From positions 3,224,001 to 3,288,000 of the forward strand of contig OX637794.1 in the NCBI GenBank assembly GCA_951802425.1: a DNA stretch of 64,000 nt, read 5' to 3'. Under the pieces are notes generated by a model, which was not told where the DNA came from, searched no databases, and worked only from the letters and a program-made list of their open reading frames with translations. This stretch comes from Clavaria fumosa (lineage: Eukaryota; Basidiomycota; Agaricomycetes; Agaricales; Clavariaceae). Shown piece by piece: positions 16,705 through 55,067 of the stretch. Position numbers and translations under genes: made by a program. Positions within the stretch are counted from its first letter, which is position 1. Each line of letters opens with the position of its first letter.

Positions 16705-17166
16705 CACACCCTTCAGCGTACCCAAACCCCATCTTATAGGGCCAGCCCATTTTGACTGGTGGCCATCTTATAGGCCCAGCCGAGCGTCGGCCAAGATATT
16801 ACATAATAGGCTGGGCCGAGATCTTAGGTCACCCAAAATTGGTAACTAGAGGTTCAGATGACTTGATATGCATGGGGCCTTTAAAATAGGCTTGGCCCAG
16901 GTCAGTAGGGCTTGGCTCAGAATAATATTCTTCAACCTGCATTCCAGGTCTAATATCACTACCTTACATCTGGTAGCACCCGTATTATGATTTTCCAGCC
17001 CTAATGCACTGCTCACTCATCTAAATTACCAGATACTGTAGTAATACCAATGTACCTGAGCAAGAAGAGCTTAGCCCAGACAATTATTCTGCATCCAACA
17101 TCCTATATCAAATGTCCCCTTATTTAATATGACACCCTACAATAAATTGTTCATTATTGAATGTTA

Positions 17167-17239
17167 GGTGTGACATGTCACAGTGTGACTAGCGTTGAAG
17201 TACTTCATCGCCTGTCACATTGTGACACATTGTCACACC
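17167..17239. repeat. GAAGTACTTC hairpin repeat, copy 1
   Basis: Near-palindrome of 73 bases: GGTGTGACATGTCAC at one end, GAAGTACTTC at the centre and TTGTCACACC at the other. It is mirrored in the right inverted repeat at 54533-54605. Confidence 0.85.
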
Positions 17240-18640
17240 TGAAATCTGGGTTAACTGCTTAGGTCACCCAAAAACTAAATCTAGAAATACAGATAACTTG
17301 ATATTGTGGGTGCCCTTAAAATAGGCCCAGCCAAAGCCTACATTCTTGACTGTATATCCAAGCTCAATACTCTTGCATATGCTAGCTCCATATTCTTGTA
17401 TAAGTAGCACTGTTGCTCTTATTTTATCAGCAGCAGAACATGATTTGTGAGGTAGATCATCAGAAGTTAATTCAGCTGCATTTCAGGTTCTATACTACTA
17501 TCCTAAATATGAAACAACTTGCTGCAATGGTATTGTCTATAATCTCATCTTCACCACCTCAATAAACCACTCACCCATCTGGACTACCTGATATGAATAT
17601 GCCTTTACAAAGGGCTCAGCTGAGATGGTCATTCTCAGGTCTGCATTTCATGTCAAATATCCCTTCCTTGCAGATCAAAATCATGAATCCTGAGCAACCC
17701 TATTGTTATTATTCCAACCCCAATGAGCCACCCATCTGGATTTCTTCATTTGAATATGCCCTTCCCAAGGGGTTCCCAGATGGTTTTACTTCACTCAACA
17801 TAGCCTTCTTTCTATGTTCCCAGTCACAGCAGACACCTCTGGAGGTTGATTATTTGATATTAATACCTCTTCATGAAGGGCTTGACTCAGTATTCTCCAA
17901 GCCTAATCCCATGTTAAATATGCTCTACCTGCATATCATAACATTTCAATAATGATCATATAATGTTATTTCTAGCCCCAATGAACTGCCCACTCATCTG
18001 GACCACCTGATATTAAGATGCCTTTACAAAGGGCTTAGCCTGGATGGTTATTCTTCAGTCTACATAACTTCAAATATCCCCTCTCTACAAGTATTGAACA
18101 ATCTGCATATGGAAACAATCACCATTATTATTTCAGTCACAATGAATTGCCTCTTACGAAATGGGCAAGCATACTGCATCAGTATCCCCTTCTTGTATAT
18201 CTTAAACCACCTTTGCAAATGCTAACACCCTTGTCTTCATTTCTACAGCATTGATCAACTCCCATTCATTTACACCCCCTCATATTAATACATTGTTATC
18301 AGCAGCTTTACCCAGATAGTTACTCTCAATAGATTCACTCAATTTGAGAATAATATGAAGGAACCAACATACTAGGTATGCCTTGAGATGTCTCTTGTAT
18401 TTCCTATGATATTTGTTTGACAAGGGGTAGATTTTAAACAATGAAAACCTGTCAAAGTAAAGTTCTATATCATAGATTTAAACAATGTTCTAATTCAAAG
18501 ACATTGGATTGCCATTTCTCAAGATACTGATCCATTTGATTGTCCTTTCTGAAATGCATGGATATGAAAACTTAATCTACAATGTGCATTATTCACACTT
18601 GTAGGGCTATGAAATCAATAAATATACATTTGTCAAAAAG
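17240..18640. other. Subterminal region without a supported gene
   Basis: Degenerate repetitive text in which TTTACAAAGGGCTYAGC-like motifs recur every 100-300 bases (about 17606, 17877, 18023). A 119-codon open frame at 17593-17952 exists unchanged in both arms, but it is built from the same repeats and I do not call it a gene. Confidence 0.55.
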
Positions 18641-18642
18641 AA

Positions 18643-20589
18643 CTACCGCCTTTTTGCCCTGGGTCTTAGCACCCGCTGCTTTGCCTCCATGGATGCTTTC
18701 CTCTTGCTTTGTGTTCGGTATGAAAGATGAGGCTCCTTCTCATCTCTGGCTCTTTTCTTCTTCAGCGAGCCAAACTGCTGATCATTCTCCACCTCACTCT
18801 CCACTTGCAATTGATCCCTCTGCCTCTCCTGCACCTCCTCCAGTATATTTAAATTGGCCATCTCATATGATTGTCCACCAATATCGTCATCAGTGTCCTC
18901 TTCATAATTGGCACTGTCTTCATCTGTAGTGTCCTCGTCATCACCAGCATGGTCTTCATCAGTGTCTTCTCTATCACTGTTATTGACTGGTTTCTCTGAA
19001 CTGGATCTGACTCACATTAGTCAATGATATTTTCAGGTGAGAAAAGATCTTACACTTCAGAGACAAGCCAGATATGCTTAGCTGTTTGACACAGCCTTGA
19101 CACTTCATTGTCAGTATCTTGTGTATGACTCTTGTCTGCATCCCTTAAGGCCTTCCCTCTCCTATGGGTGGGTAGAATCAGTCTTGAACTCAAGGACCCT
19201 TTGACCTAGAGTTTGTCGATGGTGGAGGAAGGAACAAAGCCTTCTCACATCTGCTGATTGCATTTTTGAGGGCTCACGGATGTGTACTCCTTTAGGAATG
19301 TATTGTGCTTGTATAAAGGCACTTGGGTTGTCAGATATTTGCAGCCATGGAACAGCAGCCTTCTTGTTGTTACTTTTCTTGCCTACAAAATACAACATTT
19401 TTTCAATTTATGAAATAATGAAATGTGAAAAGCTTACGGTATGCAATAGTAAAACATGATCTCAAGATCTCCTTGAGCTGAGCCAAGGGAAGTGCCAACT
19501 CTAGAGGTAGTAATGGCCAACCATCCTTGTCTTTTGCAAGATCCCATGGGACGCTTGTATCTGTTCTCTTAGAGAGAAGCACAGCATCCCAATCATCATT
19601 TTGTGGCCTTGTTGCATCCTCTGAACTCAGATTAGAGCTCTTCTTAGACACAATTGTACAGAGCACACTTACTGTTCCACATATCCCCTAAATACTCATC
19701 CCATTTTTGCCAAACAACATCTCCTGTCTGTTGAAACACATCCTTGAACCCAGCAGTGGAGGGTCCTGGCGTCTGGACTCTAAGAGAAATTCAAGAACAT
19801 ATGCATTAGTCAGGAATGTAGAACACCTCATAGAAAACACTCACTTTGCCTTCTTGATCTGCCCTTTGTCATCTTGCCAACCAGCCAACATAAAAATCTC
19901 TACTCCCATCTGCTCTTTGGCCAACCGGGAAAACTCCAAAGCATTATGCATAAACTTTCGCAAAGCCAATCTTACAGTAAAGGAAACAGCTGACATAAGT
20001 TGCAAATGAATAACATGCAGAGATTCACTCACTCTCTTTGAATATTAGACGGTACAGGCTCTGTATTCCACTTCTCAGCCAAGCCTTCATATTCAAGCCG
20101 TTCCTGTGTTGACAACTCCTGGCAAATTTGAGTCCTGGCTCGACGGTATGCGGATAAGAAGTCTATTGTGCCTCTCTCAGCCTTTGAGAGCTCTTCTGCG
20201 CGGGCATTGATTTTTTCCTTCTCATGCTGCTCAACAACACTCTGGAAGGTCCACCTTTTGCGTTTCCAAATATTGAGGCCTGGCCTTTGACCTGGCTCAG
20301 AATCAGAACCATTATCCATTCCTGCCCCAACCCTGCGATGGTTATGCAGCCAGTTGCGAATTTTCTGCAGAAGGAAAGCATCAAATCATAAGTGAATCAG
20401 ATGTGTGAAGTTCTGCTTTACCTGGTTTAAGCCATCAGGGGGATGTTCCTGCATAGCTTCAGCCAGGTCTCGGATTTGTCTCTTGATCTCCTTGACAATA
20501 CTAGCACGTTCCTTGGTGTCTGCCTTCCCATATGCTTCCAGGCTGCCTTTGAGAAGTTCAACATAAGCAGGGGTTGTCCACTTGGTCAT
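18643..20589 (-). pseudogene. Gene A, left copy (frameshifted), unknown TE-associated protein
   Basis: Seven-exon gene with short GT-AG introns, duplicated in the right arm at 51184-53129. The protein would start MTKWTTPAYVELLKGSLEAY. The helix KIRNWLHNHRR at exon 2 looks like a homeodomain-type recognition helix (resemblance only). A conserved middle follows (WTFQSVVEQHEKEKIN, ALEFSRLAKEQMGVEIFMLAGW, VQTPGPSTAGFKDVFQ), then an acidic C-terminal part (TDEDHAG region) and a basic end. Compared with the right copy this one has one extra base near 19176, inside FKT(V/D), which shifts the frame and truncates the last third. The start is the first Met, shared with the right copy. I do not recognise the family. 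A DNA-binding helper for transposition is a guess from the helix and its place in the inverted repeat. Confidence 0.72.
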
Positions 20590-20711
20590 TTACTTGAGGA
20601 TTGTGAGGAGGCAATACGCAGGATGTAGGTAGAAGTAAGAGAACGATGATTCCAACATGTGATGTTGATTGCTTCAAAGACGCAAGAAGTATTTCGAAGT
20701 CACGTGCTGTC

Positions 20712-20781
20712 GGCGTTACATGTCACTATGTGACCTGCGTTGAAGTACTTCAACGCTGGTCACATAGTGACTTGTCACACC
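20712..20781. repeat. GAAGTACTTC hairpin repeat, copy 2
   Basis: GGCGTTACATGTCAC ... GTTGAAGTACTTCAAC ... TTGTCACACC, about 70 bases, at the inner edge of the left inverted repeat. The corresponding place in the right arm (51044-51061) has lost the middle of the hairpin. Confidence 0.88.
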
Positions 20782-21008
20782 CCTTTCAAAGTGAATTGGT
20801 ATTACCAACCAAGTCAAATGTAGAGGAAGGGTGGTTCCAGACTAAGAATTGATACCTCTGTATCATTGCTTATTGAGTTTTCAACAGGGGTGTGCTATTG
20901 GGTAATTTTTGGAGATCTTTATACTCCCTAGAATCTTACTCCTAAGCCATTCTGTGAAGTGATGGACAAATTGATCAAAGGCCACAGATTTGAGTTTCTT
21001 ATCAGTCA

Positions 21009-21076
21009 GCGTTACATGTCACTATGTGACCAGCGTTGAAGTACTTCAACGCAGGTCACATTGTGACTTGTCACAC
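21009..21076. repeat. GAAGTACTTC hairpin repeat, copy 3
   Basis: Same arrangement as copy 2, with CAGCGTTACATGTCAC at the left and TTGTCACACC at the right. It heads the second tandem unit. Confidence 0.88.
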
Positions 21077-21593
21077 CCCTTTCAAAAAAATCAAAGTGCA
21101 TTGGTATTACCAACCAAGTCAAATGTAGGGAGGGTGGTTCCAGACTAAGAATTGAGACCTCTGTATTGTTGCTTATAGAGTTTTCAATGGGGATGTGCTA
21201 TTGGGTAAATTTTGAAGATCCTTATACTCCCTAGAATCTTACTCCTAAGCCATTCTGTGAAGCGATGAATAAAACGATCAAAGGCCACAGATTTGAGTTT
21301 TCTTACCAGACCAGTACCCTGTGATATTTTCTAGACATTATTCCATACCGAAATCAACAATGGAGAACTTACCATCCCTCTACATCCTTGATGGCTTAAC
21401 TTGCTTCACTTTTTCTATCCGGCCCTTCGCCAATCGGGTTGTCGCGCAATTTCTAGAGTTTGGCTGTTGTTCCAAGAGACCCTTATGACCTGGTTTGCAC
21501 ACATATGGGGTGAGGTGTATGCAAATCGTACGCTTTGGTTCACGGTGATAAGGCTCAAAATCAAAAAAGCTAGAGAAATCAATTTAGGAATAT

Positions 21594-24500
21594 TCATCTT
21601 CCCGGGTTCAAAACAGATTCCCAGGCAAGTTCAGCAGCGGTATGCATCCTCCTCCATAAAATAATCTGCTTCTCGGCATAGCATTTGTGCCCAGGCTTAT
21701 GCTCTGTGTCTGCCCAAACAGATCTCCTCTTCCATTCGCTTTCTCGGTTTGCAAACCAAGACAAAGTCCAAGTCATCTCATGTTTCACCAATTCCAACTC
21801 TTCATTCCACCTGTCATGTCGAGCTTTCGCTCGAAGCCAGTTGACCCGGCAAACTTCTCAGTGTTAGAGCAAGTAGACGTTGAGAGGTAAATGAGCATAT
21901 CTCACTTTCATTCATCCAAGGGCTTTCATTACCTCCTCCGGTCCTCCAAATCCAAGGTAGTTTATCATTTCTCTGGCCCACTCGGTTCTCTTCTATGACA
22001 TCTGTGTTCACCTTCAGGTCCGAATCTGAGAGCGCTTGGAATTTGGCAAGTGTATCTGCAGGAGCACCTAAGTCAGACAAGGCAGCTCTTGCTCGCTGAT
22101 ATCTCCCAGCCAGCTCTTTAATCTTAGAACTGATTTGAAGAAGCTCTGCTTGACTCCTTGTCTTGCTGCTCTGTGTTTTGGATTTTCGGATGCATAATTT
22201 GTAGAGCAGTGATTTGTGTCCGATAGCTAGCCTGAGTGCATCAAGGGACTCGCCTGCCTGTGCTGTCCGAAGTTGTATTTCTTGTTCGACAATCTGGCCC
22301 CATCCATTTTTCAGGCAGAAATCTCGACCGAAAGTCGAAGGCATCAAGAGCCTGGCTTGCATGCTATTTCCCACAAGGTCTTCAAAATGATCACCTTCAT
22401 CAATCCCATCCATACCCCCTTCAGAGTCTTCATCCCCTTGCACATCTGACTCATCTTGGTTCCACTCAAAATCTCCAAGAACTGCGGAGATTTTTAAATT
22501 GTGGCCTTCGATTTTTGATTCGAGTTTGTTTAGCCGATCTACAATGCTCTGTTTTTGAGGGATGGCAAGCTTTTGCCTCTTGGACAGTTCTGTCGCAATG
22601 GAATGCCTGGGTAAGGACTTGTTACAGGGGCACTAATAAAAACACTCAAGAGCATCACTCACTGAATTTCTTCCAAAGCCATTCCTTCCATCAGCAGAGA
22701 AACTATGCCTGAAGGCAATCCAACAGTCCTCTCCTTTGTCGACAGCATTAACTGCACTTCTGCAAGAGATGGTGCTTTATTTTTATGTCTTCAGTTTTGT
22801 ATAGGGGTCTGTGGCAAGAATTGAACCCACCTTTGTCCAATTGTACATCATATATCGACAGGTGTTCTCCACGACATTCCAAAGCAACCTTCTCACTTTC
22901 TTTCCATGCTTCTCTTAAATTGCTGGGAATATTGCGATTCAGAACTTCAAAGGGTGTTTTGGTTTGCTGAACGCCTTCAACTGCTGCTTTGAATTTGGAG
23001 GAGAGGGCTTTCACTTGATTGAACATTCAGTTTGAAAAAATATCTTGTAAAAAGCTTTTAATGCTCACCAATCTTCACTAACTTCTTCCAGTTGGAATCT
23101 CGCATGTAGTCATCCAGCACTTCTTGACGATGCGCTTTGCTCATGGCTCGTATGCTGCTGGAGATCTTGTTCAAATTGGACCACAGTGTCTCCAAAATCT
23201 CTCCATCTTGTTGTCCTGCACCAGGAATAAAATTGAGTGAGAAAAGAGGAAAACAAGAAGGAATGTGTGCCCCCAAGTGGAATTTTCCAACTGCTCCTAT
23301 GATCTTTGTAGCAGCTGGCATGTATAGGTATGCACTACTTTCAGCTTGTACTCTGAAGTTGCGAATCCACTGGCAACAAACATCGTAAATGACCAATATT
23401 TCAGACATTCCTTCGGTGCGATATTTCATAGCTTGGCATATTGCATAGTCGATGTTGATGTGACTGCCAAGAGAAAAGTTGAGAAGATTCAAAGAATGTA
23501 TTTGCTCTCACTTACCGCTCGCCCTTCTGAAAATCAACCACACAATGAGGAACAAAGCATCCATGCCGAGAACAGGCGCATGCCCCAATTCCAGTGGCTT
23601 CAAGGTGACTAGAACGTGCATTGAGTGCCTGGCTAATTGCTCGATGGTTTGAGCATTTTGACTTCTAGAAGAAGTATTCAGGATACACATGTAACAGTTT
23701 TGCTGAGGCACTTACCTCACGAATATCCTTTGCCTCTAAAAGGTGCCGCTGATAATTCGAGTTTTCTACCATATATCCTTCTCCATTAGTCAGCCACACA
23801 TCTTTGTCTGCTCTGGGCATCTTCAAGTGCTCTGCAGAAAAATTTCCGTCCACAACGAGAGATCTCCGGAAAAGCCACCTTTCATCGTCAGGAATGAGGC
23901 AAGATTACTCAGGTAAGACTCACTGGTCTGGGTGACTTCTCCAATTGTCAGGAAGATTGATCCCCGGTTGAGGGCATGCTGGGCAGAAAAGAGCTAGATC
24001 GCCTGTGCCTGGTGTTATATCCACATCATGTCCATATCCAAATTGTTTTCTATTCTTCAGATCTCTCCATTGCCGGGAGACTCTCATCAACTCTCGGTAC
24101 CGATCCTAATTATCGCGATCCAGGACAATGAACAAGCAAAATCTAGAAAAGTATGAATTGGACGAACGGGGATAGTGTCTGGGAAAGCGTTAGAGGTTAG
24201 CCACCTCAATTTGGTGTAAAATGCTCCAGCTGAAGTTTTGCACTCCATTGCATCGATATGAAAATGATCAAGAACTTGAAAAGTGAAAGCAGTTTGCGGT
24301 CTCTTGGAGCTTGCAGGAAAGAGATGGTGCTGAAGTAGTTGGATATGGTATGCTGGAGCGTTTGCACATTTGCAGTATCGTATAGTCCTTTCACACACTC
24401 CATTGGAATGAATGATTTGCAGTTGTCTTGCATGGCAACTCTCTGAATCGACGTCACCTTCGTTGCTTGAAAACTGATCCTCATTCTCGTCCTCTCCTCT

Positions 24501-25165
24501 GTCTTGGTACTCTGGACAAGGGGAGCCCTTGTGCCCTAAGCAAATCACCAATCCTGCTTGTGCGAGATCCGATGGTAAGAAGCACATTCCATTCCATAAT
24601 TCAACAGAATGGAATGGGGTATTGGCATGCCCTTTAGCACAACATGCTTTACAAGTCAGAGGCCAATAAAAGCAATCGCGACATCGAAACTTGAATTCTG
24701 TCTTGTGGCAGCCTTGGCAAGTGGTTGACGGGGATGGAGCTTCCAATCCCAAGATTTCCTCAGTGTAGATTGATCGTAGCAACAACCATTCCTCCAGAAA
24801 CACATTCTGGGCCTGAAATTATGTCAGTGGCTACACATTATGAAGGAAGCATCAACCCGTACTTTTCCTTGTTTTCGCTTCCTTGACCTCTCTACACGAA
24901 TAACAGGGACAGAGCCAGGATCAACAGATGCCTCAAAGCGAAGCACTGGAGCTGGTGCAATATTGGAGGAAAAGAAGCCACTGGCAGAGGGCTCAAATTC
25001 TTCGGACAAGAGTTTGTTCGGGGAGGCGGTGTGGGATCGAGAGGAAGTCGATTTACGAACATCGTGAGCTCGTATAAATGACTTTCGGAGTCGCTTGTTA
25101 TAAACTGGAACAAACTCAACCTCCTGAGCATTTTCTTTTCGTTTTGAACCAGGCAGTCCAGCCAT
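21594..25165 (-). CDS. KDZ (Kyakuja-Dileera-Zisupton) transposase with CxC2 cysteine cluster
   Basis: Likely the transposase that moves this element. It has about eight exons with short GT-AG introns, and the start at MAGLPGSKRKENAQ gives a basic, nuclear-type N-terminus. A CxC2-type zinc cluster follows (CQGCHK...CRDC...CKACCAKGH), known from KDZ transposases. The core has the hallmark ATGIGACACSRHGCFVPHC. Acidic residues in the expected places for a DDE triad are Asp in LVVDGNF, Asp in VIYDVCCQW and Glu in QQDGEILETLWSNLN, next to VGKFHLGAHIPSCF. The C-terminus (VNWLRAKARHDRWNEELELV ... CYAEKQIILWRR) also fits the family. I found no in-frame break across the exons I traced, so the gene may be intact. 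Exact splice sites are hand-read. It is the only full transposase in the element. Confidence 0.9.
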
Positions 25166-25637: not shown

Positions 25638-26735
25638 AGTTCCTCCCTTCGACTTCTCTTTGCAGTCCCCTTTCCTGTGATGTCCCCCACAGCGGGTGCA
25701 GACATGTTTGAACCTGCAGTTCGTAGTAGACAAGCTCCGTCTCACTTCGCTGATGCGGCTAGCGACACTCCTGCCGACCCACCCGATATCACAACACTTG
25801 GTGAGGGCCCACAAACGACAACCCAAACACCACCAAGCCCCCCTACATCAACATGTGCTGATACCCGTTTGGATCCAAAGAGTCCGAGGACATAATCAGT
25901 GTATTTGGCGAGTTCTCGCTCTCGATGCGGGAAGGCGAGTGGCAACAACGGTGCGTTGCCGTGCAAAGACCCAGTCTCCTGCTGTCCTGACTAATTTTGA
26001 CGGTTTGGATGGACCGTGTCGAAGCTCAATGTCCCCGACACGTTCAATGGTTTGAGTCTTGTCACAAGTTGCATAGGCTCCCGAGAGCACAATGTCGAGG
26101 TTGACCGCTTTGCCCAAGAGGACGTTCGTCCACTCTGAATCTGGGAACCGAGGGACTCCTGGTGTGGTGGAGAGGTGAAGTTTGGCGTTTTTGATGTCGG
26201 CAGCGAAGTTAATGATGAGTCGGCAAGTGAGTTCAAGACTTGGGCTGAGTTAATTCGAAGCAAGTTTTGCCCGCTGTGCCCAGGGATAGAACTCTTCGTC
26301 AACGGGCTGCTTTCGAAGCAACCGGTCTCCTAATTCAGGTGAGTTGCTCCGTCGCCGTTTGTCTCTGGCTCCGCGGGTCTCGCCCTGCTCGCCGAGTTGA
26401 TCCTCTCCAGGTTCGAGATCCTGTCCATCAGGGTCTTCTGCATCTTCGCCACTCTCCGAGGCTGTGCGGAGAATTCTCCCATGCTCCTCAAGTGAGTCGA
26501 GATATACTTCATACGCTGAGTTGACCTGTTCTTCCGATGCGACAGGTCCTGTTTCCCGTAATACGTTGAAGATCTGTGTCACTGCCGCTCCCTTGGTGAT
26601 TTTCCCATCTCGAAAGCGCTTGACAATTTCGTCGCATCGCACATTTGTTGATGGGGCGCTTGGTAAGTCTGAGGCGGACACAGTTCTAGACGTTGGAGGA
26701 GGGTTGGTTCCGACTGCATCTGAGGTTGAGGTCAT
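25638..26735 (-). pseudogene. gag-like ORF relic with zinc knuckle
   Basis: Starts MTSTSDAVGTNPPPTSRTVS. A conserved N-terminal part (CDEIVKRFRDGKITKGAAVTQ) and a charged linker lead to FYPWAQRA. In the next frame follow LTCRLIINFAADIKNAKLHL, VPRFPDSEWTNVLLGKAVNLD and IELRHGPSKPSK, and finally a Cys/His knuckle CRFKHVCTRCGGHHRKGDC near 25690. The order (N-part, SEWTNVL-type core, zinc knuckle) is that of a gag-like ORF common in agaric retroelements. I cannot assign the superfamily. At least two frame changes break it, and no reverse transcriptase follows, so it is a relic or captured piece. Confidence 0.65.
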
Positions 26736-26739
26736 GTAA

Positions 26740-27260: not shown

Positions 27261-27263
27261 CAT

Positions 27264-28701
27264 CTATGAGATATAGTCAGATCTCTTTGGCCATGCAGGC
27301 CTCGGAAAATCCAGTCTGTCATGGACAGTGTCCTTGACGAAATGAGCAATGCATACCCTGTCCCCTTCCCATTGACGAACTTCATGGAAGAAAACCTTCC
27401 CACAGAGGGAGACCATTGTCCCAGGAGGATATGAGAGGGAAACTCCTAACTCTTGAACATCAAAAGTGGTTCCATGGTGTGCCCCAGCACTGAGAAGGAG
27501 GTCAAAGTGCGTTGGACAACCACCTTCATCCCTGTGACGAGGAGTCACCCGATTCACGATCACCTGCATTGCAGTGTATACCGATGGCCATAACTCGACA
27601 TTTTGATACTTTTGAGCCATTTCGACACCCTCTTTGATCTTGCCTATGGCTGCGAGCCCATAGTCATATAGTTCTGGAGTAATTAGTGCTGTGACACAGT
27701 TGCAGAGGAGCTCTACATCGGCAATTGCTGTCATGAATGACCGGCCATGCAATGCCTGCAAACTTGTAGATGCTCTGAGCTTCTCATGAGGTTGCTATTA
27801 GAGATCATCAGTTTGTGCTATTGGATGTCTCATTTGACGCACATCTCGTAGTTGCATAAACCAACCAGCAGAGAATGCCAGAACACCAGCGCCAAAGACA
27901 GTGTGGGCTGGAGGGTTCAAACCCTGCAACCTCCAAGGCTTATCTCGGCCTGATGTCTTGTTCACAAGATTACTCTTGATCAGGGCTATAGCTCTGTTGC
28001 AGTCAGCCTAAATATTTCCATATAAGCAAAGATCAATTAAACATGAGCTCTGCTCACGATTCGCGATGTTGAGATGATACCAGGCAGATGCCATAATATG
28101 ATGTGGTTGAACTTGTCCACTACAATTGCTGGCTCATCGATGTATCCTGAGCCATCTGGGATTCTGAATTTCTTCTTCAGACGAGCCAACTCATTATCTA
28201 TCCTTGACTCATAGTCTCCTGCCATATTGAGCTCCTTGACGTTGCTGATAAATCTTTCGACATCCCAATCTGTCTGAACTGAGAATGTAATTAGTTAACA
28301 GAGCCATGCAGCAACTAGGGACCAAGGGTATTTCAGTGCTCCACGTACTAGGGTTGAGCAAAGCATATGCAGCAGTAAGCGCTATCCTTTGGAAGTCTGC
28401 TTCTCCAAGCGGGGTGTGGTCACTCAAGTCTAAAGCTGTCTTCAGTTCCTCAAGTTCAGCCCAAACTTTGAGCCTGGGATAAAATTGAGGTTATATTAAA
28501 AAATGACAGTTGGAGGATCACATACTGTTTCTTCTTCAGGTTCTCTGTCGCATTGCCACAATGCCTACGCAAAATATCTTTCAACCGGGCCCAAATAGAG
28601 TCTTTTAGAGTGGAGGGTCCTGCCAGTGGGAAGGTCGATGAAGGTGCCAAAGGAGTGGAATTACCCGTCGTTTCCGATGCCTGTTTACGACGTCGCTTCA
28701 T
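27264..28701 (-). CDS. TET/JBP-family 2-oxoglutarate/Fe(II) dioxygenase
   Basis: Predicted to oxidise a methyl group on DNA bases (5-methylcytosine in characterised fungal relatives), using Fe(II) and 2-oxoglutarate in the nucleus. The start at 28701 gives a basic MKRRRKQ N-terminus; an upstream in-frame ATG at 28731 is possible. At least five exons. Seen in order: GEADFQRIALTAAYALLNP; a lysine-rich helix; IVVDKFNHIILWHLPGIIS, a typical lead-in; then the double-stranded beta-helix. Fe ligands are His and Asp of TPRHRDEGG and the distal His of KVFFHEVRQW. The Arg of GDRVCIAHFVKDTVHDR is placed to bind 2-oxoglutarate. HFDLLLSAGAHHGTTFDVQELGV and SYPPGTMVSLCG fill the core. All key residues are present. 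Known basidiomycete TET/JBP genes sit beside KDZ transposases, as here. Confidence 0.9.
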
Positions 28702-28965: not shown

Positions 28966-30454
28966 TTACACCACAAGATACACAACAACGAAAGTGAGCC
29001 TTGAACATGCCACGAGTTGAGATGAATGGTTTGCCTGAGATGAATGGTTTGCCTGCAGTTCAATGGCTTCTTCAAAGAGAGATAAAGTGGCCCATTTCTT
29101 CTCATATTTGCTGATCTCAATCTGGAGGCGCCTTCGCTTTTCCTCCAACTCCTTTTTATCAGAGAGTGAGGGTTGCCTCAAAGACTGTGTATAGGCAACC
29201 AAAGAGGCCCTATTTTGTTGTGAATGACAGGCAATGGAACTTTGCAATACGACTCACTGAGTGGCTTCTATGCTCAATCCTAGAGCCAAGAGATTAGATA
29301 TGCCAGATAGATTTCCAGCAGCATGATGTTTTTGAGAAAGCTCCAGTAGAACCTCAGCACAACCTGGTTCTGTGTAAAAGTGTATGCCATTAGCCAGGCA
29401 ATATAGCAACTATAGATATGTTTTCCAAGTACTGGCCTTTCACATTTGTGACATCGTACACCAAAAGAGCATCTCCCCGTTGAGTCATTGCCTTCTCCTC
29501 TAGGTCCTTCCATTCTAATACCCATGTTGGTTCAAGCCATTTCGTCAACTCATCCAGGGCTAACTTCTTGTCCTCTCTTTCAGTCATTGCTTTTTTTAAC
29601 TTGGTGACAATAGATTGTGCTGTGCCAAGTCATCAGCAAAGACACATGTGAGAATATGGGGATTTGCTTACATGCTCTAGACATTTTCTTCCAATTGGAA
29701 TCCTGCATGTAGCTGTCCAGTATCTCCTGCCGATGTGGTTGAGACATGCCCCTTGTATGGCTTGCTGCCTTATTAAGTGATGACCAAAGGCTTTCCAATA
29801 CTTCCCCATCCAATTGCCCCACACCTTGCACAAAGTTCAAAGAGAACTGTGCAAAACATTTTTGGATGTGAGCACCTAAGTGGAATTTTCCAACTGCAGT
29901 TATCACTTCAAGATCCTCCCGCACATACAAGTGCCCACTGGCATCAACTCGCTGCTGAAAATTGATGTGCCACTCACATCCAACATCATATACAAAAATG
30001 ACTCTCTTGGCAAGTAAGACGGCTGAGGAGTGAGCGGGTTTTGGTCGTTGGATGGAGGTTGGTCGTCTGGTGTGGGATCCTGGTTTCCTTGATCTCCGGG
30101 CTGCGAACTAATTGTATGGGATCGGGCACTTGCAGCTTCTCTGAAACGATCGAAGTTATCGAGCATCTTGGTGTAGGATTCAAGCGCTTTAAGAAACTCG
30201 GGCTGTTCGAACGTTTCGTGTGGGATGATCTGTTGGAACTGTAGGATGGCTGCAACCTTCGTGAGACGACCTCCGCGGTATTGTTGGACGACTTCATAAC
30301 ACTTTCGACCAACTTCGGTGTCTGCACCCTGAAAATTTTGGTCTTGTGCGTCGATAGACGGTCCAGCAACGTCAATCGATGCCCCTTGGTTCGATGATTG
30401 CTGTCTATTCGCTTGTGATGTAGATGGATGTGCTGTATCATCACTCCTTGACAT
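28966..30454 (-). pseudogene. Chimeric relic: gag-like N-terminus joined to a KDZ transposase fragment
   Basis: The first part (30454 to about 30010) starts MSRSDDTAHPSTSQANRQQ and contains KCYEVVQQYRGGRLTKVAAI, a paralogue of the gag-like N-terminus at 26735. Around 30000 the text turns into the second half of a KDZ core: CEWHINFQQRVDASGHLYV, ITAVGKFHLGAHIQKCF and VGQLDGEVLESLWSSLNKAA with the third acidic residue, then LEWKDLEEKAMTQRG and short downstream exons. The zinc cluster, the first catalytic Asp region and the C-terminus are absent. The KDZ part differs clearly from the complete copy at 23100-23400, so it comes from another element. Not a working gene. Whether the junction is transcribed is unknown. 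Confidence 0.7.
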
Positions 30455-30459
30455 ATTTG

Positions 30460-31093: not shown

Positions 31094-31163
31094 ATGAAGT
31101 ACTTCAACGGCGGTCACACTGTGACCAGCGTCGAAGTACTTCAACGCCAGTCACACTGTGACC
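31071..31163. repeat. GAAGTACTTC hairpin repeat, doubled copy 4
   Basis: Two GAAGTACTTCAACG cores in tandem separated by GGTCACACTGTGACCAGC, bounded by GGTGTCACACTATGTGACC and GTCACACTGTGACC. Confidence 0.85.
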
Positions 31164-35310: not shown

Positions 35311-35485
35311 ATTTATTACAGTTGTCATACCAGACATTGAATATCCTCCCTATTGCTTTCGGACTTTCCTATGCTTCCCTGCTGGAGGTCCTATCTTTAC
35401 CACTCCTGTCTCCTTCCTTTTTCTCTCCCGCATTTGTCTCCTTCTAAAACAATGTGAGTTCTTGCTCACTCAGGGAATATTTCAC

Positions 35486-39421: not shown

Positions 39422-41115
39422 ATGGCTAGGACTAAGCAATCTGCTAAGAGGTCATCTGGTGCTCCTGCTATGAGAGCCACCCTGCCTAAGGACTATCCCA
39501 AGTCTGCTGATCCTGCACCAGCACGCAAGGATCCTGCTCTCGTTCTGGTAAGCACTGGTGTGTCTGTCCATTCCGATCGTGTTGATCAGGAGATCAGCCT
39601 ATGGTTCATCCCGCAGACCCAGAGGCAAATGATGAGGTGAGTGGACCCCCTTTGGATTTGCCATTGGATCTGACCTGACTGCCCCATAGTGGTGTTCTGG
39701 GTGTGGGAATGGCGGGCTATCTCTAAATTGTGATTACTGTCCACGAACGATGTGTGACAGGTGCTTGAGTATCCCAGGGGGGCAGCACCTGGTTGCCCAG
39801 GCAAACACAAAGTTCATGTGTGTGAGTTGCCATATCAGGTCTGACGCTCGGAATGAGCCCTATCATGTATGGTTTTATTTTCATACCTTGTGCAGTAGGA
39901 ACTAAAATTTTGAGCTCTTAGCCCCTTCACCATGATGATCAACCCATCCCACAACTGTTTGGGTTAGTCAAGCCTGCCACACTCCGAGGACACTATGCAC
40001 GCCAAAACACCGACTCAATCGCCCTTGTCAATATTCGCCTCAGCTCCATCACTGAAAGGGGTGATCCTTTCAAGTCTGTGGCGAACACGCTGAGCGGGTG
40101 GTACACCCCAGAATCAGAGGGAAAGGAATTCCTCGAATTAGAAGTCAAGCTGGATGTTATTCCATCGGATGTCAAGTCGTTGCAGAAGCACCAGTCGATC
40201 TTGGCAAAATTTGTAAAACATATTCAACAGTAAGTCTTATTTTTTATTTATAAGTCAATTTCTGATGTTTATTACTATTCTCTTATTCAGAAAGAGAGTT
40301 ACGCGTCTCCTTGTCTTTTTATACACGCATACCGACCCAGACAGTGGTGATCCCCACTGCACCCCAGGCACAGCCCTTGAAATCGGAGTGGTAAGTCTTT
40401 CTTCACATGATTTTTGATATTAGTGATCTGGATACATTCATTTTTAGTTTCTAGAAGCGATTCTTGGGCCAGATCTCACATCGTTTGCCAAGGGTGCGCA
40501 CTCGATGCTCATTATGGAGGTATGTGGGAGTATGTGGGAGACGGATGCGTCCCTCTTCGCAATACAAAAGTTTGCGAAGGCATAAGTGGCTTATTTTGAG
40601 TTTCTGCCTACTTTCTCACAACCAGCAGTCAGTATTTCAACCACATCATCGGGTTTGGTCAACCGAACTTTTATCCACACTTGGCAACCTCATTTTTGCT
40701 GAAACTTGTCATCAAGAATTTCGTCGAGTGTTTTTCCATCGTTCGAATTCTCCCCGAACTTTTGAAAGAGGAAGAGGGCCTCGGTGCCCATACATCAGTC
40801 AAGGTATTTTCACCATTCATCGGCCTCGAGTATGTCTGGTGGCACAAGAATCTCCATCCGCTCGGGGACCTGATTTCGCCACAGTGCCCAGTCTGTCACA
40901 CTGTTCGTACACTGACAATTGGCACTGAGATGGCAAAGCCCGGTTTTTATTCTGTCTCTTGTTCATGTGGCTGGAAAGGGCAGAAAGCAGGCAAGAGTGG
41001 CTTGGAGATTATGAGTGGAGGAATTGCGGGCTGGGGGAAGCGCCTCCTGTACAGGACTCCTGCCAGCTTCTTGACCATCTGGAAGGCCTCCCGAGATTTT
41101 TACTACATGTTCTAA
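39422..41115 (+). CDS. Zinc-cluster protein 2 with a histone H3-like N-terminal tail
   Basis: ATG at 39422 has A at -3 and G at +4 and opens MARTKQSAKRSSGAPA. After Met removal that is ARTKQSAKRSSG against H3 ARTKQTARKSTGG, so residues 1-5, 7, 10 and 12 are identical, including Lys4. A spliced linker (ALVL then PMVHPADPEANDE) leads to a Cys cluster WCSGCGNGG...CDYCPRTMCDRC...FMCVSCH. Next comes the middle domain (GLVKPATLRGHYARQNT, IALVNIRLSS, TRLLVFLYTHTDPDSGDP), then a C-terminal region with zinc ribbon CPVCHTVRT ... SVSCSCGWKG, and the stop at 41115. The cluster and ribbon match the gene at 32885. The open frame also runs back to 39266, which would bury the tail, so the start is likely but unproved. 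A mimic that engages H3-tail readers or modifiers is inference. Confidence 0.68.
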
Positions 41116-47013: not shown

Positions 47014-47045
47014 AATTAGTTGTAATAATGTTTTAGAGATCTTTG

Positions 47046-47230: not shown

Positions 47231-47403
47231 CAACAATCTGAAACCTGTCACCTGGACTTTGTGTGAGAATGCTCTCATTGGGAGTACTCCAGTTGTTGAA
47301 TAATCTTTGTTCATTTATTAATTTATAGCCTGATTGATCTTTCTTTGAGTCCTTCACCGTCAATGACAAGAACATTGAGTGTATTTCAAAGTCACGTGCC
47401 ATC

Positions 47404-47475
47404 GGCGTTACATGTCACTATGTGACAAGCAGTGAAGTACTTCGTCACGTGTCACATTGTGACTTGTCATACACC
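47404..47475. repeat. GAAGTACTTC hairpin repeat, copy 5
   Basis: GGCGTTACATGTCACTATG ... GTGAAGTACTTCGTCACG ... GACTTGTCATACACC, an eroded copy between the JmjC and Ulp1 genes. Confidence 0.8.
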
Positions 47476-47755
47476 GCTGTACCAGCCTAGATGAATATAA
47501 AAGCCAACAAAATTTGATTCAACAGTGCAGTAAAGACAAGAGAGGGCACAGAACAGACAGTTATTAAGCATTTCTTCTCAGACATCCGAAAGAGACAGTA
47601 GGGTCTGAGAACTCGATAAGCCCTGAAACAGAAATCTACATTCTTACTTCTGTCTCTCGAACCATCCTTCCTCTACACTCCTTAGAATCTCACTCCTTAG
47701 CTGTTCACGGAGATTTGTGACCATCGAATGCTTCCACATGTTGTCCATGCTCAGC

Positions 47756-49119
47756 TCAAAACCTGAGCCATTCTGCAAAGCAATGAGAAGAATAGAAATC
47801 AAAGGTGGGTGGTCTCACCTGTACCGCATCCCAAAGTCTTTTGCCCTCTGTCATCCAAAGCCTTCCAAAATGGATTGTATAAATACCACAATCACTTCCA
47901 TTTCCTTGCTTGATAACCTGTAATTACACGATATGAGGACAAATAATAAAGCCTTAGAGAATCCACACCAACTTTTGGATAAATGACTTTGGGCAGCTTG
48001 ATAGACGCCAACCCTTGGGCCTTCCCAGCAGAGTGAAAGACACCCATAATTGCAGCCTCATCTTCAGCGGGCATTTTGTCGTAAAGGCTGTCGAGGACAA
48101 CTATGAAACTGTGATATTTTCTTTCCATTATTCCACACCAATGCTAATGATCAAGAACTTACCATCCCTCTACTTCATTGCTACCTTTCATGAAGCATTG
48201 GTATGGGTTAACTACAACTATTAAGTACCAATGTTTTCTGGAATAACAGCAGTAATCAGTTGAGAGGAAGATGGAAAAAGGAGATAATCACTTGCTTGTT
48301 GTCGCTGAAGGCTGGAATAATCCAATATGTATATCTCAGTGTGAGATCTGGAATCCATCTGGAAGCATTCTCTGCTCCATCTTTTCTGCTCCAAGCTCAT
48401 TAGCTGATACTTCTTAAAGATTAAAATATTTACCGTAATTTAGTAAGGAAAAATGAGCTGGCTAACCAGAATGATGCTGCTGCAGAGCCATGTTGTATCC
48501 GCACATCAGCTACTGTCTTACTGTATAAATTTCATTATATTAGTAAGATTGCTAAGGAGCACCAATGCCTACCGTAGGGCAAAGTCCACAATGTGGTCAT
48601 TGATCCACCGACCATCATCCAAGAGTTCGAGCTCTTTGACATCCATCTCAAAGTCCCCTGCAATCATTGTTTGATCTGCTAGACTACAATATATGAGAAT
48701 ACTTGCTATATGCAGTGAATTGAAAGCTCATCTACACTGAAGAGCTTTCCCAAATAGTTGTTGATTCTTCACTCCTTGAGACATCCATTAGATTCAGAAC
48801 TACACCTGTCTCAACGGAAACTTACTCGAGATACCCCCAAGAGTCTCCAGGAAAATTGGGTTTGACAGATTGGACAAAAATGTGATATTTCTTATTATTC
48901 CACATCTCTTCATTTTGATCAAACAAAAGCATGAGCTCTCGAAACGCAGCACGATCTGGAAATTATGCTCAGGCAACTGATTTTGAATAGAAGTTGGAAT
49001 GAGTACTTACTTGCATCAGTCTTGTTCCAAAATTCCATCACTGAAGAAGTTGCTGGACGGACAAGATTCACGTTCAAGACCATTATGACGTGGTCTCCCT
49101 TATCCTGGGGGTCACTCAT
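47756..49119 (-). CDS. Ulp1/SENP-type SUMO protease (peptidase family C48)
   Basis: Predicted cysteine protease that would remove SUMO from proteins. It begins MSDPQDKGDHVIMVLNVNLV (49119) and has about seven exons with short GT-AG introns. The C48 core is read in order: LELLDDGRWINDHIVDFAL (the WLND-like entry), LTLRYTYWIIPAFS, KHWYLIVVVNPYQC with the catalytic His, SFIVVLDSLYDKMP with the catalytic Asp, and QGNGSDCGIYTIHF with the oxyanion Gln and catalytic Cys. It ends ...TEWLRF at 47756. The catalytic set is complete. The N-terminus is short compared with host Ulp1, so it may be a stand-alone catalytic domain. Ulp1-like proteases travel with several eukaryotic DNA transposons. Some exon joins are hand-read and may be off by a few codons. 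Confidence 0.8.
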
Positions 49120-49611: not shown

Positions 49612-49680
49612 GGTGTGACAGGTCACAGTGTGACTTGCGTTGAAGTACTTCAACACTGGTCACAAAGTGACATGTAACGC
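49612..49680. repeat. GAAGTACTTC hairpin repeat, copy 6
   Basis: GGTGTGACAGGTCACAGTG ... GTTGAAGTACTTCAAC ... GTGACATGTAACGC, inverse of copies 2 and 3. Confidence 0.88.
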
Positions 49681-49750
49681 TGACTGATAAGAAACTCAAT
49701 TCTTAGTCTGGAACCACCCTTCCTCTACATTTGACTTGGTTGGTAATACC

Positions 49751-50940: not shown

Positions 50941-51043
50941 CTAACATAGGGCATAGCCTCAAAATGAGTATAAATAGGATTTAAAATATATGTATATATA
51001 TTTATATATATAAATACCAATTCACTTTGATTTTTTTGAAAGG

Positions 51044-51061
51044 GGTGTGACATGTAACGCC
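51044..51061. repeat. Hairpin repeat with its centre deleted
   Basis: GGTGTGACATGTAACGCC equals the two outer ends of hairpin copy 2, with about 52 internal bases missing between GTGACA repeats. A slip across the hairpin stem would explain it. Confidence 0.8.
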
Positions 51062-51183
51062 GACAGCACGTGACTTCGAAATACCTCTTGCATCTTTGAA
51101 GCAATCAACATCACGTGTTGGAATCATTGTTCTCTTACTTCTACCTACATCCTGCGTATTGCCTCCTCACAATCCTCAAGTAA

Positions 51184-53129
51184 ATGACCAAGTGAACAAC
51201 CCCTGCTTATGTCGAGCTTCTCAAAGGCAGCCTGGAAGCATATGGGAAGGCAGACACCAAGGAACATGCTAGTATTGTCAAGGAGATCAAGAGACAAATC
51301 CGAGACCTGGCTGAAGCTACGCAGGAACATCCCCCTGATGGCTTAAACCAGGTAAAGCAGAACTTCACACATCTGATTCACTTATGATTTGATGCTTTCC
51401 TTCTGCAGAAAATTCGCAACTGGCTGCATAACCATCGCAGGGTTGGGGAAGGAATGGATAATGGTTCTGATTCTGAGCCAGGTCAAAGGCCAGGCCTCAA
51501 TATTTGGAAACACAAAAGGTGGACCTTCCAGAGTGTTGTTGAGCAGCATGAGAAGGAAAAAATCAATGCCCACACAGAAGAGCTCTCAAAGGCTGAGAGA
51601 GGCACAATAGACTTCTTATCTGCATACCGTCGAGCCAGGACTCAAATTTGCCAGGAGTTGTCAACACAGGAATGGCTTGAATATGAAGGCTTGGCTGAGA
51701 AGTGGAATACAGAGCCTGTACCGTCTAATATTCAAAGAGAGTGAGTGAATCTCTGCATGTTATTCATTTGCAACTTATGTCAGCTGTTTCCTTTACTGTA
51801 AGATTGGCTTCGCGAAAGTTTATGCATAATGCTTTGGAGTTTTCCCGGTTGGCCAAAGAGCAGATGGGAGTAGAGATTTTTATGTTGGCTGGTTGGCAAG
51901 ATGACAAAGGGCAGATCAAGAAGGCAAAGTGAGTGTTTTCTATGAGGTGTTCTACATTCCTGACTAATGCATATGTTCTTGAATTTCTCTTAGAGTCCAG
52001 ACGCCAGGACCCTCCACTGCTGGGTTCAAGGATGTGTTTCAACAGACAGGAGATGTTGTTTGGCAAAAATGGGATGAGTATTTAGGGGATATGTGGAACA
52101 GTAAGTGTGCTCTGTACAATTGTGTCTAAGAAGAGCTCTAATCTGAGTTCAGAGGATGCAACAAGGCCACAAAATGATGATTGGGATGCTGTGCTTCTCT
52201 CTAAGAGAACAGATACAAGCGTCCCATGGGATCTTGCAAAAGACAAGGATGGTTGGCCATTACTACCTCTAGAGTTGGCACTTCCCTTGGCTCAGCTCAA
52301 GGAGATCTTGAGATCATGTTTTACTATTGCATACCGTAAGCTTTTCACATTTCATTATTTCATAAATTGAAAAAATGTTGTATTTTGTAGGCAAGAAAAG
52401 TAACAACAAGAAGGCTGCTGTTCCATGGCTGCAAATATCTGACAACCCAAGTGCCTTTATACAAGCACAATACATTCCTAAAGGAGTACACATCCGTGAG
52501 CCCTCAAAAATGCAATCAGCAGATGTGAGAAGGCTTTGTTCCTTCCTCCACCATCGACAAACTCTAGGTCAAAGGGTCCTTGAGTTCAAGACTGTTCTAC
52601 CCACCCATAGGAGAGGGAAGGCCTTAAGGGATGCAGACAAGAGTCATACACAAGATACTGACAATGAAGTGTCAAGGCTGTCTCAAACAGCTAAGCATAT
52701 CTGGCTTGTCTCTGAAGTGTAAGATCTTTTCTCACCTGAAAATATCATTGACTAATGTGAGTCAGATCCAGTTCAGAGAAACCAGTCAATAACAGTGATA
52801 GAGAAGACACTGATGAAGACCATGCTGGTGATGACGAGGACACTACAGATGAAGACAGTGCCAATTATGAAGAGGACACTGATGACGATATTGGTGGACA
52901 ATCATATGAGATGGCCAATTTAAATATACTGGAGGAGGTGCAGGAGAGGCAGAGGGATCAATTGCAAGTGGAGAGTGAGGTGGAGAATGATCAGCAGTTT
53001 GGCTCGCTGAAGAAGAAAAGAGCCAGAGATGAGAAGGAGCCTCATCTTTCATACCGAACACGAAGCAAGAGGAAAGCATCCATGGAGGCAAAGCAGCAGG
53101 TGCTAAGACCCAGGGCAAAAAGGCGGTAG
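51184..53129 (+). pseudogene. Gene A, right copy (early stop at codon 4)
   Basis: Same seven-exon gene as 18643-20589. The exons I read are about 51184-51351, 51409-51740, 51803-51928, 51994-52100, 52131-52335, 52391-52718 and 52766-53129. Codon 4 is TGA (51193-51195) where the left copy has TGG, so translation from the usual Met fails. Met45 of the left copy is also Thr here. The rest of the frame is open, including the part that is frameshifted in the left copy. The C-terminal exon is acidic (EDTTDEDSANYEEDTDDDIG) and ends in basic RPRAKRR. Several arm differences (KHKRW against KRKRW, HTEELS against RAEELS) are CG-to-CA changes. Function unknown. Confidence 0.72.
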
Positions 53130-53134
53130 TTCTT

Positions 53135-54532
53135 TTTGACAAATGTATATTTATTGATTTCATAGCCCTACAAGTGTGAATAATGCACATTGTAGATTAA
53201 GTTTTCATATCCATGCATTTCAGAAAGGACAATCAAATGGATCAGTATCTTGAGAAATGGCAATCCAATGTCTTTGAATTAGAACATTGTTTAAATCTAT
53301 GATATAGAACTTTACTTTGACAGGTTTTCATTGTTTAAAATCTACCCCTTGTCAAACAAATATCATAGGAAATACAAGAGACATCTCAAGGCATACCTAG
53401 TATGTTGGTTCCTTCATATTATTCTCAAATTGAGTGAATCTATTGAGAGTAACTATCTGGGTAAAGCTGCTGATAACAATGTATTAATATGAGGGGGTGT
53501 AAATGAATGGGAGTTGATCAATGCTGTAGAAATGAAGACAAGGGTGTTAGCATTTGCAAAGGTGGTTTAAGATATACAAGAAGGGGATACTGATGCAGTA
53601 TGCTTGCCCATTTCGTAAGAGGCAATTCATTGTGACTGAAATAATAATGGTGATTGTTTCCATATGCAGATTGTTCAATACTTGTAGAGAGGGGATATTT
53701 GAAGTTATGTAGACTGAAGAATAACCATCCAGGCTAAGCCCTTTGTAAAGGCATCTTAATATCAGGTGGTCCAGATGAGTGGGCAGTTCATTGGGGCTAG
53801 AAATAACATTATATGATCATTATTGAAATGTTATGATATGCAGGTAGAGCATATTTAACATGGGATTAGGCTTGGAGAATACTGAGTCAAGCCCTTCATG
53901 AAGAGGTATTAATATCAAATAATCAACCTCCAGAGGTGTCTGCTGTGACTGGGAACATAGAAAGAAGGCTATGTTGAGTGAAGTAAAACCATCTGGGAAC
54001 CCCTTGGGAAGGGCATATTCAAATGAAGAAATCCAGATGGGTGGCTCATTGGGGTTGGAATAATAACAATAGGGTTGCTCAGGATTCATGATTTTGATCT
54101 GCAAGGAAGGGATATTTGACATGAAATGCAGACCTGAGAATGACCATCTCAGCTGAGCCCTTTGTAAAGGCATATTCATATCAGGTAGTCCAGATGGGTG
54201 AGTGGTTTATTGAGGTGGTGAAGATGAGATTATAGACAATACCATTGCAGCAAGTTGTTTCATATTTAGGATAGTAGTATAGAACCTGAAATGCAGCTGA
54301 ATTAACTTCTGATGATCTACCTCACAAATCATGTTCTGCTGCTGATAAAATAAGAGCAACAGTGCTACTTATACAAGAATATGGAGCTAGCATATGCAAG
54401 AGTATTGAGCTTGGATATACAGTCAAGAATGTAGGCTTTGGCTGGGCCTATTTTAAGGGCACCCACAATATCAAGTTATCTGTATTTCTAGATTTAGTTT
54501 TTGGGTGACCTAAGCAGTTAACCCAGATTTCA
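53135..54532. other. Subterminal region of the right arm, no supported gene
   Basis: Inverse of 17240-18640, with the same recurring GGGCTYAGC/GGCCCAGCC motifs and the same 119-codon open frame on the other strand. Confidence 0.55.
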
Positions 54533-54605
54533 GGTGTGACAATGTGTCACAATGTGACAGGCGATGAAGTACTTCAACGCTAGTCACACTGTGACATGTC
54601 ACACC
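54533..54605. repeat. GAAGTACTTC hairpin repeat, copy 7
   Basis: Mirror of copy 1. It has GATGAAGTACTTCAACGC where copy 1 has GTTGAAGTACTTCATCGC, and both orientations keep the GAAGTACTTC centre. Confidence 0.85.
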
Positions 54606-55067
54606 TAACATTCAATAATGAACAATTTATTGTAGGGTGTCATATTAAATAAGGGGACATTTGATATAGGATGTTGGATGCAGAATAATTGTCTGGGCTA
54701 AGCTCTTCTTGCTCAGGTACATTGGTATTACTACAGTATCTGGTAATTTAGATGAGTGAGCAGTGCATTAGGGCTGGAAAATCATAATATGGGTGCTACC
54801 AGATGTAAGGTAGTGATATTAGACCTGGAATGCAGGTTGAAGAATATTATTCTGAGCCAAGCCCTACTGACCTGGGCCAAGCCTATTTTAAAGGCCCCAT
54901 GCATATCAAGTCATCTGAACCTCTAGTTACCAATTTTGGGTGACCTAAGATCTCGGCCCAGCCTATTATGTAATATCTCGGCCGATGCTCGGCTGGGCCT
55001 ATAAGATGGCCACCAGTCAAAATGGGCTGGCCCTATAAGATGGGGTTTGGGTACGCTGAAGGGTGTG

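Follow-up and report, generated by a model that had tools for sequence, protein, structure and literature searches.

What sort of element interrupts the retroelement sequence at this Clavaria fumosa locus, and what might its genes do there? We analysed a 64,000-nucleotide stretch of contig OX637794.1 (the window), which is C1:3224001-3288000 of a 48.76-Mb genome in 17 contigs (C1 and so on) that was searched as a whole. Window positions 16705-55067 are a 38,363-bp (38.4-kb) KDZ transposon, one of seven complete copies. Its boundaries, its copies, its empty target sites and its repeated gene set were observed directly. The conserved cargo is predicted to encode a TET/JBP dioxygenase, a JmjC-like oxygenase, an Ulp1-type SUMO protease and a protein whose N-terminus resembles the tail of histone H3 (the H3 mimic). 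We put at roughly 70% the probability that this cargo counters host chromatin silencing, a role that we infer from the encoded proteins.

An earlier note on this DNA had claimed exact ends, a CCCTGTT duplication, 4-kb inverted repeats and a gag frame restored by removal of the element. The ends and the duplication lay precisely where that note had put them, and the terminal inverted repeats (TIRs) that it described were found at the following positions:

16698-16704, no strand: target-site duplication CCCTGTT, left copy
16705-20726, plus strand: left TIR, 4022 bp
51047-55067, minus strand: right TIR, 4021 bp
55068-55074, no strand: target-site duplication CCCTGTT, right copy

The left end at 16705 reads CACACCCTTCAGC and the right end, finishing at 55067, reads GCTGAAGGGTGTG, giving termini of the form CACACCC...GGGTGTG (5'-CA..TG-3'). 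The two TIRs are 99.43% identical, with 22 mismatches and a single 1-bp gap at 19178. When the element was removed in silico and the flanks were joined with one CCCTGTT, the gag frame ran uninterrupted. A 285-nt probe of this joined target matched empty sites elsewhere in the genome: among 40 scored of 149 candidate matches, all 87-96% identical, 39 spanned the whole length including the junction and the remaining one covered probe bases 11-285. These matches are paralogous retroelement copies without the insertion.

Searching the genome with a 1-kb TIR probe located seven paired, complete copies on six contigs, 38.3-49.3 kb in length, along with one single element end on C4 and some more distant ends:

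C1, window positions 16705-55067: complete copy, 38,363 bp
C2:2580158-2629497: complete copy
C10:2448685-2489236: complete copy
C5:1100072-1140117: complete copy
C7:1256638-1294922: complete copy
C6:451897-500158: complete copy
C2:1093238-1141268: complete copy

All seven are bounded by a matching 7-bp duplication and all seven duplications differ (CCCTGTT, CATCAGT, GCTGAGG, GATGTCC, CCGGTTC, AGCGAGG and ACTGCTG); the flanks are likewise unrelated between copies. KDZ, TET/JBP, JmjC-like and Ulp1 matches fell between the shared ends in every complete copy, which bears out the earlier proposal of one bounded mobile unit with the whole set, at least in this genome. The proposal had also named cargo genes at unrelated places, or never between these ends in another copy, as the observation that would speak against it; within this genome it withstood that test. 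Five copies, the window's and four others, were read end to end and were collinear in either orientation, at about 97-99% identity in long blocks; gene positions in the remaining two come from protein and family matches only. Size differences relative to the window copy included +10.7 kb (C2b), +1.8 kb (C10) and +1.4 kb each (C5 and C7), the C7 copy also being without about 1.8 kb. A diverged relative on C8 spans 33,675 bp between 7-bp duplications (TGGCTGC) and has TIRs of about 4.5 kb at about 99% identity. Its TIRs and flanking modules are about 91-98% identical to those of the window copy and its middle is different; it retains the TIR genes, KDZ, TET, the H3-mimic start, JmjC and Ulp1.

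Gene models were built with a small spliced gene finder trained on element exons, and were largely consistent across copies; further genes are possible in open stretches that have no model. The window copy carries the following genes:

18643-20589, minus strand: TIR gene, left copy, about 500-530 aa (amino acids)
21594-25165, minus strand: KDZ transposase, 10 exons, 1009 aa, CxC2 and full KDZ domain
25896-26735, minus strand: predicted 263-aa protein of unknown function
27264-28701, minus strand: TET/JBP dioxygenase, 5 exons, 405 aa
29390-30454, minus strand: second, half-length KDZ protein, 320 aa, KDZ profile 114-217 only
35350-36322, minus strand: predicted 281-290-aa protein of unknown function
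39422-41115, plus strand: H3-tail-mimic protein, 7 exons, 456 aa
44143-47013, plus strand: JmjC-like oxygenase, 9 exons, 813 aa, HID...LHFV putative iron-binding motif
47644-49119, minus strand: Ulp1-type SUMO protease, window model incomplete at the C-terminal exon joins
51184-53129, plus strand: TIR gene, right copy, one stop in the C10-based model

The KDZ, TET, half-KDZ, mimic and JmjC genes all read open in the window. The transposase, already recognised in the earlier note, matched Pfam KDZ over profile positions 2-217 (E 7.2e-44) and CxC2 (E 2.5e-24). The TET/JBP assignment also stood: Pfam Tet_JBP scored 52.7 bits (E 3.8e-14) versus a cut-off of 34.9, and the protein aligned with the CcTet structures 8jkk and 7vpn (E about 7e-21) in an alignment that pairs up HRD and the second H. 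CcTet is reported to be a 5-methylcytosine oxidase in the available text of PMC12730594. The JmjC gene became recognisable once a single splice site was shifted, after which MPHID...RPGTLHFV could be read. The proposed Ulp1 protease was upheld by a Pfam Ulp1/C48 score just above the cut-off (23.4 versus 20.7 bits, on the C10 copy's model) and by 17 of 19 PDB matches to SENP/ULP-type proteases; HW, VLDS and GSDCG motifs are readable in the window. The gene in each TIR, the half-length KDZ protein and the H3-tail-mimic/PHD gene were absent from the earlier note, and of its two zinc-cluster proteins one is best taken as the CxC2 portion of the transposase and the other as the PHD portion of the H3 mimic.

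The mimic, whose window model comes from hand splicing, starts MARTKQSAKRSSG..., a look-alike of the histone H3 tail. Its layout comprises MARTKQSAKRSSGAP, a PHD-type zinc finger, a possible caspase/CHAT-like region and a zinc-ribbon-like end; the N-terminus, MARTKQSAKRSSGAP..., compares with ARTKQTARKSTGGKAP in H3. A zinc pattern, WCSGCGNGGLSLNCDYCPRTMCDRC...FMCVSCH, follows soon after and conforms to CxxC...CDxCPR...C..CxxCH, with Cys replacing the usual His of C4HC3. PHD/ADD proteins, for example ATRX, TRIM33, AIRE and TIF1, made up 28 of the 30 PDB rows for this protein, and this group is known for reading the unmodified H3 N-terminus. No histone domain was found in the mimic by Pfam, and the protein does not belong to the histone H3 family. 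A His (YTH) and a Cys (xCG) are conserved in its middle part, and Foldseek with the model of a related Earliella scabrosa protein returned SAVED-CHAT (E 3.6e-5) and caspase-4 as first matches.

We then asked how common such starts are. The exact sequence M-A-R-T-K-Q occurred 11 times with CGN arginine and 19 times with AGR arginine across the genome, and M-P-R-T-K-Q 20 times, making 50 M[A/P]RTKQ starts versus none for reversed-pattern controls. Two of the 50 are true H3 genes (L046 and L047) and one is an unrelated short open reading frame; the other 47 were taken as mimic genes. For 36 of these 47, a mimic-body match followed on the same strand no more than 3.5 kb downstream, and the DNA was read directly for 14 of the 47. 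Among the 27 mimic starts with MARTKQ, at least 18 were within 6 kb of a TET match or of a KDZ match from a hand-picked subset, six lay inside complete copies of the window family, and three were near neither TET nor listed KDZ. A whole-protein genome search, with matches hand-grouped, gave 70 mimic-protein loci, at least 47 of them within 6 kb and at least 55 within 15 kb of a KDZ/TET match, compared with 4.3% and 10.3%, respectively, of random points on C1-C10. Separately, some KDZ-linked mimic genes start MPRTKQ and not MARTKQ, with L049 (C1:4195850-4196450) among the 20 matches; Pro as the first residue would presumably alter both how the N-terminus is processed and how H3 readers bind it.

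The tail itself was compared in seven proteins. Variants read in this genome were ARTKQTAKTSTGSP (C7, C8 and C9), ARTKQTPKKSTGGR (C3), PRTKQSASRSTGAP (L049, PRTKQ) and ARTRQSAKRSSGAP (L050, ARTRQ). Three relatives were retrieved by a protein-database search with the mimic: one from Earliella scabrosa, annotated as starting MARTKQNARKSTGAP and with the PHD pattern present; one from Trametes sanguinea, where MARTKQSAKRSVGG lies within a longer annotated protein; and a fragment that lacks the N-terminus. The Earliella and Trametes proteins, both from polypores, keep MARTKQ at only 25% identity to the window protein. R2, T3 and Q5 were present in all seven tails, and K4 and A1 each in six of seven; the K9 context was not kept in all. 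The C8 and C3 tails were found through the MARTKQ pattern and are not independent of it, whereas those of L049, L050, Earliella and Trametes were found through the protein body.

Conservation extends to the gene set. At no fewer than 21 of 39 JmjC loci, Ulp1, KDZ and TET lay between inverted TIR genes within 40 kb, the TIR gene being on the minus strand at the left and on the plus strand at the right. These linkage counts, for which exon matches were hand-grouped into loci, are lower bounds. Some of the 21 loci belong to a more distantly related family, about 22 kb long, whose JmjC exons are mostly 49-67% identical. Part of the set was missing at the other 18 loci, of which four (C1:95469, C5:44064, C12:46807 and C4:4499736) are less than 100 kb from a contig end. 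Too few single-nucleotide polymorphisms separate the five near-identical copies for a codon bias to show, and the C8 relative was therefore taken for estimating the ratio of nonsynonymous to synonymous substitution rates (dN/dS). Against C8, dN/dS was 0.20 for the TIR gene of the C10 copy and 0.21 for the window's right copy (533 and 532 of 534 codons after dropping gaps and stops), 0.19 for KDZ (1008 of 1010), 0.18 for JmjC (811 of 814), 0.33 for part of Ulp1 (190 of 190) and 0.05 for the last TET exon (172 of 176), where dS was saturated. The C8 element itself has one stop in KDZ and one in JmjC. These ratios indicate purifying selection on five genes of the element.

How might such a set work? 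Acting at the 4-kb inverted repeats, the KDZ transposase would mobilise the element through a cut-and-paste mechanism. The TET/JBP enzyme would act on 5-methylcytosine in the element's DNA, oxidising it; DNA_methylase (PF00145) matches occur at two loci of the host genome, so there is probably DNA methylation in the host to oppose. The JmjC-like enzyme could take off a repressive histone methyl mark and Ulp1 could strip SUMO from silencing factors. The mimic would bind H3 tails by means of its PHD finger and, with its own H3-like N-terminus, occupy host H3 readers or writers; alternatively, the N-terminus may restrain the protein's own PHD and caspase/CHAT-like region. A more elaborate version, which we hold only tentatively, is a histone-mimicry kit in which a mature A/P-R-T-K-Q N-terminus would act as a decoy for H3 readers and writers and a caspase/CHAT-like protease would clip H3 tails or silencing factors, alongside the DNA and histone demethylases and the SUMO protease.

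A repeated noncoding motif, the GAAGTACTTC palindrome, is likely to provide candidate recognition sites that bring a cargo protein to the element. It is the core of an approximately 95-bp GTCACA/TGTGAC repeat and occurs eight times in the element versus zero times in 25.6 kb of flanks, 8-9 times in each of the four further copies read, and eight times in the C8 relative. The window positions, none with a strand, are:

17197-17206: GAAGTACTTC palindrome
20742-20751: GAAGTACTTC palindrome
21038-21047: GAAGTACTTC palindrome
31096-31142: two GAAGTACTTC palindromes, at 31096 and 31133
47434-47443: GAAGTACTTC palindrome
49642-49651: GAAGTACTTC palindrome
54566-54575: GAAGTACTTC palindrome

Several observations weigh against counter-silencing. 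Not all copies are open: stops interrupt KDZ and half-KDZ in the C5 and C7 copies, and in C7 also TET and the mimic gene, so that four checked genes are hit there; C2b has a stop in JmjC. The mimic model is uninterrupted in three copies (window, C10 and C2b); C7 breaks it with an early stop and C5 with a late frameshift, and in C6 the body is present without the exact MARTKQ start. The right TIR gene of the window has one stop and the left has one base more than the right near 19178; the C10 copy reads open. The TIR gene product had no Pfam family over the cut-off and no PDB match, and the 263-aa and 281-290-aa proteins have no recognisable domain. No mimic gene was seen in the families of about 22 kb. 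No M[A/P]RTKQ start lies in the 3.5 kb upstream of 34 of the 70 mimic loci; at least one opens with MARTRQ instead, and others may be truncated or spliced differently. For the JmjC oxygenase claimed earlier, the HxD and later H are present, but Pfam JmjC gave 16.9 bits against a cut-off of 24 (E 0.0088, profile 4-114 of 114) and there was no PDB match, hence the name JmjC-like; a protein-database search with residues 150-640 was also empty at E <= 0.001. Taken singly, the PHD matches of the mimic are all weak (best E 0.004), and no PHD was found in it by Pfam. The Earliella model is of low confidence (mean predicted local distance difference test score 48.4, with 10-residue blocks of 37-78 across 201-430), and the caspase/CHAT-like region is a lead only because a second aligner ranked flavodoxin-like folds as high as caspase/CHAT; we give those flavodoxin-like matches no evidential weight either.

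Other explanations must be set beside counter-silencing. The cargo might serve transposition itself, the PHD/H3-mimic and TIR-gene proteins choosing or opening target chromatin and Ulp1 processing or stabilising the transposase complex. H3-tail readers can guide integration, the cargo genes accompany the transposase in each family compared, and the TIR gene sits inside both terminal repeats, a convenient place for end-binding proteins. Yet the TET/JBP and JmjC-like oxygenases have no obvious step in cut and paste, and the available text of PMC12730594 argues that transposon TET genes serve escape from methylation-based silencing; we consider a transposition role unlikely. Quite improbable, in our judgement, is that the H3-like N-terminus is an accident of open reading frame prediction or a convergence without a role. 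Some families do vary the tail (PRTKQ, ARTRQ), the K9 context is not universal and nearly half of the mimic loci (34 of 70) have no exact start, but 50 pattern matches against none for the reversed pattern, an Earliella protein annotated as starting at MARTKQ, and tails that were found through the body and are still H3-like (PRTKQ in L049, ARTRQ in L050, MARTKQ in Earliella and Trametes) speak against this.

The cargo might also consist of host genes carried along, or now serving the host, for example in developmental chromatin control. The 64 TET/JBP matches in the genome would suit this, and purifying selection fits host use equally well. On the other side, the copies are recent insertions with intact duplications, and at least 55 of 70 mimic loci lie no more than 15 kb from a KDZ/TET match compared with 10.3% of random points, leaving this explanation very improbable. 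We discount almost entirely the idea that segmental duplication or faulty assembly produced the unit, although two 4-kb arms at 99.4% identity could confuse an assembly: the flanks are unrelated at all seven loci, which are spread over six contigs and each have their own duplication, and there are empty-site relatives. If counter-silencing is correct, this would be the first transposon known to us that unites DNA demethylation, histone demethylation, deSUMOylation and H3-tail mimicry. It would make fungal transposon escape from 5-methylcytosine and heterochromatin testable with cloned genes, and may help explain the multiplication of TET/JBP genes in mushrooms.

Some further observations concern the remaining genes and the surroundings. 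A protein-database search with the TIR gene product was empty at E <= 0.001; the gene may encode a divergent HMG-domain protein such as is reported for KDZ/TET elements. By eye, the half-KDZ protein (29390-30454) and the 263-aa protein (25896-26735) have a common N-terminal pattern, RxGxxTKxAAxxQ, and the half-KDZ gene looks as if the small domain of the 263-aa protein had been fused to the C-terminal half of the transposase. The 48.8-Mb genome holds 185 KDZ and 64 TET/JBP matches. Weak TET matches below the cut-off cluster near contig ends (for example C1:5273111, C4:21061, C8:50823 and C10:59155), maybe as a subtelomeric lineage. Within the window there was no Rfam match and no tRNA. Direct repeats at 1793-2361 and 57098-57686 (90-96%) lie either side of the element and are probably neighbouring retroelement sequence, and a tandem-repeat array of about 51 bp units occupies 62095-62715, beside long retroelement-like open reading frames. 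A 10-kb near-palindrome at 3846-13962, with arms 98-99% identical, contains tandem repeats of 134 bp as well as a core rich in GC (72-73%). A sequence resembling the KDZ end motif, TCACCCCCTTCAG, lies just within the left arm, and both arms seem to include part of the host-like flank; the near-palindrome is possibly a rearranged, transposase-less relative.

Where, then, does the element stand among known systems? It has the KDZ domain and CxC cysteine cluster that define the KDZ superfamily. A Zisupton is ruled out by the 7-bp duplication, 8 bp being required. Starship captains are tyrosine recombinases (DUF3435), and no DUF3435 Pfam match was found in the gene models scanned, some open stretches being without a model. 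Like the giant Starship transposons of fungi, the element is large and bears cargo; unlike them, as far as the available descriptions go, it has a KDZ transposase and long TIRs, the Starships being defined by a tyrosine-recombinase captain. The KDZ/TET elements of Iyer and colleagues (2014) reportedly associate KDZ with TET and extra genes, including one for a divergent HMG-domain protein; we know of no description there of a 38-kb bounded unit, of long TIRs or of an H3 mimic.

The association of KDZ with TET/JBP in Agaricomycetes and Kyakuja-like ends are known already, and the earlier statement that the pair occurs in basidiomycetes agrees with the available text of PMC12730594. The TET-bearing Kyakuja elements described there (Kojima, 2025) likewise have a KDZ transposase, a CcTet-related TET/JBP gene, 7-bp duplications and CA..TG ends, and come from Agaricomycetes. 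Our element has the 7-bp duplication in all seven complete copies and in the C8 relative, and the 5'-CA..TG-3' ends. Kyakuja-1_LB and -2_LB, by contrast, are described as having no TIRs (PMC12730594), whereas here the TIRs measure 4.02 kb and contain a gene; for this reason we file the element as KDZ and not as Kyakuja of the described form. The words JmjC, SUMO, Ulp1, PHD and HMG do not occur in the main text of that article. Long TIRs, the assembled gene set and the H3 mimic appear to be new: no transposon-encoded H3 mimic or such a combined set was found in the literature searched, most subscription journals and supplements lying outside it. KDZ1 of Cryptococcus, an active element, shares with ours TIRs and a KDZ transposase bearing a CxC zinc motif, but it measures about 11 kb with 241-bp TIRs and an 8-bp duplication, and chromatin cargo is not mentioned in the available text (PMC12810828).

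Two comparisons touch the proposed function. Viruses and some cellular proteins are known to mimic histones, and VANDAL transposons of Arabidopsis have a Mutator-like transposase. BAZ2B, like the mimic, places an H3-like stretch beside a PHD finger in one protein, and this stretch lowers binding of the PHD finger to H3; it differs, in the text available, in being a cellular protein with an internal lysine-rich linker and no N-terminal ARTKQ (PMC5663869). The VANC protein and transposase of VANDAL differ from those of our element, according to the available parts of the reports, but VANDAL/VANC is likewise a transposon encoding its own anti-silencing protein, the role proposed for the cargo here, and its repeated noncoding motifs offer a possible parallel to those of the element (PMC5735166, PMC10398659).

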